Positions 49,346 to 49,883 of a stretch of 52,396 nt of DNA are shown in pieces. Under the pieces are notes generated by a model, which worked only from the letters and a program-made list of their open reading frames with translations, did no database searches and was not told the DNA's origin. Source of the DNA: Tannerella sp. (GTDB lineage: Bacteria; Bacteroidota; Bacteroidia; Bacteroidales; Tannerellaceae). Position numbers and translations under genes: made by a program. Numbering within the stretch: position 1 is the first letter of the stretch; each line of letters starts with the position of its first letter. Location: positions 1 through 52,396 of the forward strand of contig JAISXP010000140.1 of assembly GCA_031270465.1 (NCBI GenBank), in the 5' to 3' direction.

Positions 49346-49568
49346 GCTTTGATTCGCTCTCGAGGCTAACCATAAATCCTCAAGAGAAAACAGTCATAAT
49401 TTCTTACGAACAGGAGCATTGCCAAAATTGTATTTGCACTTTTCATTGTTATGATTTTCAATTATTCATGATGCTTTATTAACATCGCAAACCTTTCTGC
49501 TGTAAACTACAGCCCTGCTAATGGTATACATAAAACTTGCGTTTGCTATCCTGCATTATTTATTATTG

Positions 49569-49651
49569 TACTCGAAGCGGGAGTTGAACCCGCACAGCCG
49601 TGAGGCCAAAGGATTTTAAGTCCTTCGTGTCTACCATTCCACCATTCGAGC
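49569..49651 (-). tRNA. tRNA-Leu (anticodon TAA)
   Basis: An 83-base minus-strand class II tRNA: acceptor GCTCGAA/TTCGAGT, D arm, anticodon arm GGACT-TAA-AATCC, a variable arm around ggcctcacggct, and T arm CGGGTTCAACTCCCG. The 3' CCA is not encoded. Confidence 0.93.
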
Positions 49652-49674
49652 ATTGTATTACTTTGCATCTTGTG

Positions 49675-49747
49675 AGCGGAAAACGGGACTCGAACCCGCG
49701 ACCCTAACCTTGGCAAGGTTATGCTCTACCAACTGAGCTATTTCCGC
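49675..49747 (-). tRNA. tRNA-Gly (anticodon GCC)
   Basis: A 73-base minus-strand tRNA with acceptor GCGGAAA/TTTCCGC, D arm GCTC...GAGC, anticodon loop around CTT-GCC-AAG and T arm CGGGTTCGAGTCCCG. It lies 23 bases upstream (in transcription) of tRNA-Leu. Confidence 0.95.
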
Positions 49748-49770
49748 ATTTTTGTTTGGCTTTGCTTTTC

Positions 49771-49813
49771 CCTTGCCAAGGTTAGTTTTTACATCTAACT
49801 TTTGGGGCAAGGT
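49771..49813. repeat. Inverted repeat built from tRNA-Gly anticodon-arm sequence
   Basis: ccttgccaaggttag (49771-49785) can pair with ctaacttttggggcaagg (49795-49812), giving GTTAG/CTAAC and CCTTGCC/GGCAAGG stems around a nine-base loop. The left arm is an inverted 15-base copy of the tRNA-Gly anticodon arm at 49704-49718. Confidence 0.7.
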
Positions 49814-49841
49814 TATGCTCTACCAACTGAGCTATTTCCGC
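49806..49841 (-). pseudogene. Duplicated 5' half of tRNA-Gly
   Basis: 36 bases identical to positions 1-36 of the intact tRNA-Gly (49712-49747): acceptor 5' strand, whole D arm and the 5' part of the anticodon arm up to GCC. The 3' half is missing and replaced by the hairpin sequence, so no mature tRNA can form. Confidence 0.85.
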
Positions 49842-49853
49842 GAAATACGGGTG

Positions 49854-49883
49854 CAAAGATACGCATTTTTTGAAATACGCAAA
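49854..49883 (-). promoter_or_regulatory. Promoter of the tRNA cluster
   Basis: The minus strand reads TTTG, 18 bases, TATCTTTG, ending 12 bases before the half tRNA. Transcription would therefore cross the half tRNA, then tRNA-Gly, then tRNA-Leu. Confidence 0.7.

Follow-up and report, generated by a model that had tools for sequence, protein, structure and literature searches.

A repeatable leader of tRNA-Gly(GCC) in Bacteroidales, built from a duplicated 5' half and an antisense anticodon arm, and its possible role in tRNA maturation

tRNA genes are usually viewed as constitutive. The rtT repeats carry a short piece from the 3' end of tRNA-Tyr and are found downstream of the gene. Among known tRNA-derived repeats, those of rtT RNA from the E. 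coli tyrT operon are the nearest (Bosl and Kersten 1991, cited in PMC2965389). The element described here has in common with them tRNA-derived repeats co-transcribed with a tRNA gene (here a prediction) and a by-product RNA for which a regulatory role is proposed. Unlike them, it combines a 5' half with an antisense arm, lies upstream, accompanies tRNA-Gly, occurs in another phylum and has no Rfam match. It also recalls a glycine-class T-box leader, being complementary to the tRNA-Gly anticodon region and having two mutually exclusive folds, likewise predicted. However, the controlled gene would be the tRNA itself, and a 15-nt antisense takes the place of the T-box codon-anticodon and acceptor contacts; there is no T-box covariance match, and a candidate intrinsic terminator after the hairpin was rejected because no U run follows it. 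Tandem inversion duplication and quasi-palindrome template switching (PMC8604942) offer a third likeness, with the order sense-antisense-sense, the turn at an inverted repeat and the homogenisation of the arms, but they describe a mutational origin and not a function, and alone leave the retention across families unexplained. Finally, tRNA fragments displaced by genomic islands (Islander, PMC4383910; PMC9897764) share the 5' fragment upstream of an intact copy and the break near the anticodon, whereas the present locus has no island or integrase in between, a conserved hairpin and tandem units.

The unit lies on the minus strand of the window (the whole stretch of 52,396 nucleotides that was analysed, contig JAISXP010000140.1 of Tannerella sp.), and its parts are listed in Table 1. 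The promoter was assigned by the Bacteroidetes-type consensus known from Bacteroides. The preliminary description had placed a half tRNA between promoter and intact tRNA-Gly, and TTTG and TATCTTTG do precede the half, which begins 12 nt after the -7 box. It had also claimed an exact repeat of 36 bases; the identity holds (36/36), but the copy has no sharp end at position 36, for behind the inserted CC it continues as a decayed version of tRNA positions 37-44 (AAAAGTTAG versus AAGGTTAG). After the half, the unit reads CC-AA-AAGTTAG-ATGTAAAAA-CTAACCTTGGCAAGG. The proposal that the hairpin is made from an inverted copy of the anticodon arm is borne out by the last of these segments, 15 nt that are the exact reverse complement of positions 30-44, numbered along the gene. 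By structure prediction, the unit on its own folds as a D-arm plus hairpin.

Table 1. Features of the tRNA-Gly(GCC) locus in the window, in order of transcription
Feature	Position	Strand	Basis or remark
-33 promoter element TTTG	49880..49883	-	Sequence; 18 nt before the -7 box
-7 promoter element TATCTTTG	49854..49861	-	Sequence; transcription predicted to begin a few nt ahead of the half
Sense half, duplicated 5' half of tRNA-Gly(GCC), positions 1-36	49806..49841	-	36/36 identity to 49747-49712
CC inserted behind anticodon position 36; bulges out of the hairpin	49804..49805	-	Near-universal in homologous units
Conserved hairpin core, AACCTTGCC-CC-AA..loop..AACCTTGGCAAGG	49771..49814	-	Model R1, 62.2 bits, and predicted structure
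Antisense arm CTAACCTTGGCAAGG	49771..49785	-	Exact reverse complement of tRNA-Gly positions 30-44 (anticodon arm), 15 nt
Spacer, 23 nt	49748..49770	-	Remnants of the tRNA's first part in antisense, more distinct in relatives
Intact tRNA-Gly(GCC)	49674..49747	-	ARAGORN; Rfam RF00005, 72.4 bits
tRNA-Leu(UAA)	49568..49651	-	ARAGORN; presumed to share the transcript of tRNA-Gly

Neither ARAGORN nor Rfam recognised a tRNA inside the unit, which contains no cloverleaf with T-arm and acceptor stem. In an Rfam scan of both loci of the window genome at E-values up to 5, no family matched the unit, rtT and T-box included. The 36/36 match, the 15-nt antisense match and the recurrence in dozens of species together exclude chance. 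Two other identities were considered and dropped: an integron attC site, after inspection of the sequence, and a leader peptide, since the ATG-TAA frame in the loop of the window unit is missing in most relatives.

A second tRNA-Gly(GCC) in the window genome, on contig C10, is preceded by two tandem units with a period of 87. Among 60 related genomes, BLAST returned matches extending beyond the half in many of the same genus, often in tandem. Scanning 84,980 genomes with a pattern that, as in all our pattern-based searches, demanded part of the stem sequence gave 72 contig stretches, and every record is titled Bacteroidales or a taxon within it (Proteiniphilum, Seramator, Tannerella, Paludibacter, Alistipes, Prevotella, Mediterranea and others). 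Arrays of one to eight units occur patchily in Tannerella, Dysgonomonadaceae, Paludibacteraceae, Bacteroidaceae/Prevotellaceae and Rikenellaceae. Many gut-type Bacteroidales are carriers. The element is real, old and conserved, and the comparison with relatives that the preliminary description had called for yields homologous units in dozens of species.

The association with tRNA-Gly is strict. Each of the 102 units read in the 72 stretches has a tRNA-Gly downstream wherever enough sequence is available. The partner was tRNA-Gly in 68 cases, and no true case with another tRNA turned up in 230 tRNAs, with 30 tRNA loci, a part of the full set, covered in the window genome. Apparent exceptions at tRNA-Leu turned out to be true tandem tRNA-Leu genes.

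How common the unit is depends on the group sampled. In the family of a Seramator-like genome (G246), about one-third of 101 genomes have matches across the hairpin, several of them single-contig assemblies, and genus g20 of the same family has almost no match. In another family, probably Rikenellaceae (f107), about 17 of 200 genomes carry the unit. It is rare among 392 evenly sampled Bacteroidales genomes, in which the exact pattern found it in 4 and the model in a few more, a count that is a lower bound because the order-wide covariance search scores 16 candidates per genome; the remaining exact-pattern matches in this sample are not units. A looser phylum-wide pattern gave scattered matches that we attribute to chance, since the reversed pattern, used as control, gave many matches too; among the matches listed, the window's own was the only unit.

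Where the unit is missing, the promoter mostly stands directly before the tRNA, as seen in unit-less representatives of the families. In the syntenic relative G031 (L342), the same promoter region is joined straight to an intact tRNA. Such an empty site in a close relative indicates that the element is dispensable. At this site, the promoter side matches the window and the downstream side differs; these flanks suggest recombination between tRNA-Gly loci as a possible route of gain and loss.

Within the unit, conservation is concentrated in the half and the hairpin. In three groups compared, the half (D-half) is 90 to 94% identical and the loop 71 to 81%, while the spacer and the upstream and downstream flanks reach 47 to 54%, the level of unrelated sequence. 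Between species, BLAST matches reach no further than the end of GGCAAGG. The CC insertion was partly demanded by the search pattern, and units found by BLAST carry it too. The hairpin, with 13 to 16 nt of antisense, is retained in four units whose acceptor/D half is lost (L081, L089, L067 and L106). Changes on both sides of the stem were found in three pairs, a number reached in 2 of 500 shuffles; the pairs are few because the stem hardly varies. At L159, AATCTTGCC pairs with GGCAAGATT, and at L031, TTTTG pairs with CAAAG and CCGAA with TTCGG, the tRNA of each locus being unchanged.

The antisense arm follows the tRNA of its own host. The tRNA-Gly anticodon stem varies by lineage (TAACC, CAACC or CGACC), and three arm bases match the host's own tRNA in 87 of 94 units, compared with 36.6 under permutation (at most 51 in 2000 permutations), a contrast inflated by shared ancestry. 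Tannerella has all three stem types, as does Dysgonomonadaceae, and the Bacteroidaceae-like and the Paludibacteraceae-like loci have two each; the mixture of types inside these groups implies several independent changes of the tRNA stem, each followed by the arm. The next arm base is C, the complement of G44, in 70 of the 94 units and A, a direct copy of A26, in 15, which identifies the arm as an inverted copy. In 93 of 94 units, 13 to 18 nt are perfectly antisense to the own tRNA, and the arm includes the complete 7-nt complement of the anticodon loop. The half is identical to its own tRNA over 36 nt in 58 of 94 units. Tracking of this kind is predicted both by selection for pairing and by homogenisation through template switching (PMC8604942); the persistent CC bulge and the conserved loop favour selection.

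The preliminary description expected the half to be transcribed together with the true tRNAs, and the placement of promoters supports this. Of 85 arrays, 62 have a TAnnTTTG box in the 90 nt ahead of the first unit, where shuffling gave 4.8 and at most 10; of 101 stretches that separate a unit from the next unit or from the tRNA, only 3 have one. Since the boxes stand upstream of the units, these are predicted to be part of the tRNA leader and to be transcribed as such.

The transcript thus predicted would have two competing structures. In the window, the separate folds of leader and tRNA add up to about -48 kcal/mol, and the joint minimum is -58.3; in the joint fold, the antisense arm takes up the entire anticodon arm of the tRNA, the acceptor strand of the half is paired with the 3' strand of the tRNA, and the T-arm stays intact. 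Equilibrium prediction, which ignores tRNA tertiary structure, modifications and kinetics, pairs the arm with the tRNA at 66 of 67 loci, the alternative being better than the parts folded separately by 10.9 kcal/mol on average. The one exception, L081, has lost its half. Scrambling the arm lowers the mean gain from -9.9 to -2.3. When prefixes of the window transcript were folded, the arm left the local hairpin only once some 40 nt of the tRNA had been made. However, the alternative fold follows automatically from an antisense copy, so bistability alone is no proof of function.

With the anatomy, the conservation, the position between promoter and tRNA and the complementarity of the arm to its own tRNA established, we propose that the feature in the window is one unit of a conserved, repeatable leader of tRNA-Gly(GCC) that was born by foldback, has been kept by selection and gates the maturation of the tRNA. 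We put the probability of this reading at about 0.42. During transcription, the half would capture the antisense arm first, in the local hairpin, and thereby shield the tRNA, which would be free to fold as a cloverleaf and be committed by the RNase P cut. If processing lagged, the stabler fold would form, with the arm on the anticodon arm of the tRNA and the acceptor strand of the half on its 3' strand, and the unprocessed precursor would collapse into a dead-end pseudo-tRNA. The output of glycine tRNA might in this way be set by the processing capacity or by whatever binds the half. Gating through two exclusive folds is what the folding models lead us to infer. Against it speak the antisense of only about 10 nt in one genome (G869), the small number of two-sided stem changes, the patchy distribution, the empty site in G031 and the ability of template switching to keep inverted repeats complementary without selection (PMC8604942). 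A more specific version, which we consider doubtful, is a self-antisense switch in which the precursor chooses between the cloverleaf and a giant pseudo-tRNA whose 5' half is replaced by that of the leader, with copy number tuning the choice.

We know of no earlier folding switch on a tRNA gene. If gating is real, it would be the first, and would offer a testable route for setting the level of a single tRNA; units are present in culturable species. We found no description of the element in the open-access literature, which was the scope of the search. The architecture is new to the families and papers searched; the newness is that of the architecture and not of a proven function.

The main rival of maturation gating is a scar kept complementary by template switching, that is, a functionless relic of an old tandem inversion duplication at the anticodon-arm quasi-palindrome. 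Gene conversion would homogenise the half with the tRNA, template switching between the inverted repeats would homogenise the arm, as it does for short inverted repeats (PMC8604942), and the copy number would rise and collapse as the 36-bp direct repeats recombined. The spacer is antisense to tRNA positions 1-28 with p below 0.05 in 19 of 58 units, most strongly in T. forsythia, Bacteroidaceae-like and some Rikenellaceae-like units; since in many lineages it pairs with the 5' half of the tRNA, the order of the array is sense half, antisense half, sense full gene. Sense, inverted and sense copies in a row are what a tandem inversion duplication at this quasi-palindrome would leave, and read from sequence this is a good account of the origin. 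Such long-hairpin complementarity of the spacer was not seen in Proteiniphilum, Seramator and Paludibacter and is not claimed to be universal. The decay of the antisense spacer, the variation from one to eight copies, the empty site and the agreement of the half with its own tRNA all suit a scar as well. However, the CC bulge is hardly ever repaired, the loop is conserved above background, hairpin and antisense outlive the decay of the half, and homologous hairpins have lasted in several families even though a single crossover between the repeats removes a unit. We therefore regard a pure scar as possible but less than probable. The foldback scar of the preliminary description survives as an origin and not as a one-off event, the element being repeated order-wide. 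Even a scar would be a rare natural record of an inverted duplication persisting beside a tRNA gene across families.

Released units might instead act in trans, as a small RNA or decoy that binds tRNA-Gly, glycyl-tRNA synthetase, a tRNA-modifying enzyme or an anticodon nuclease. The 7-nt anticodon-loop complement in the arm and the tracking of the own tRNA would fit such a role, tandem copies would increase the dose, and the D-stem of the half is kept despite changes of the D-loop (L339 and L051). The units, however, occur upstream of tRNA-Gly only and nowhere else in the genomes exhaustively pattern-searched, which indicates a role in cis, and a unit without its own 3' acceptor strand cannot be charged. 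We consider action in trans unlikely, and retain the regulatory decoy of the preliminary description at that level; a half-tRNA decoy misses the core of the element, since several units lose the acceptor/D part and yet keep the hairpin.

The trace of an integrative element, also raised at the outset, is far less probable still. Islands are known by sites centred on the anticodon and by 5' fragments that lie upstream of a restored tRNA (PMC4383910; PMC9897764), and a same-orientation 5' fragment does lie upstream of the complete tRNA gene here, as if a 5' tRNA fragment had been displaced at an attachment site in the anticodon arm. Islander, however, demands an element of at least 2 kb with an integrase (PMC4383910), and the interval between half and tRNA-Gly is about 58 nt. 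The junction is a conserved inverted repeat and not a simple att pair, and an inverted arm, tandem multiplication and conservation across families are foreign to such scars. Viral contigs, phages and plasmids gave plain tRNA or chance matches only and no unit; the viral-contig matches have a different sequence context, and none stands beside tRNA-Gly. An assembly artefact is hardly conceivable, for although the window genome is in 183 contigs and contigs often end at unit repeats, the same units are present in isolates (Tannerella forsythia, Proteiniphilum acetatigenes and Seramator thermalis) and in single-contig genomes (G030, G857, G865, G866, G869 and G870).

The arrays themselves show some variety. 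Copies number one to three in 85 arrays and eight in the complete genome G869, where contig C1 (L339, L345) has eight tandem units with a period of about 118 ahead of one tRNA-Gly. Their D-loop is altered and only about 10 nt of the antisense arm remain, which may mean that the array is drifting. Several genomes of family f107 (L329-L334, L344) have two or three intact tandem tRNA-Gly(GCC) genes, instead of or beside half units, with differing spacings. The units at L008 and L044 are each followed by a tRNA-Gly gene whose body is of the GCC type but whose anticodon is TCC (AACCTTTCCAAGG), with an imperfect acceptor stem, possibly an anticodon switch or a sequence error. Downstream of the tRNA-Gly on contig C10 (L002, 1257-1368) lies a near-perfect long inverted repeat, TCCACGAATT...AATTCGTGGA, which is MITE-like.
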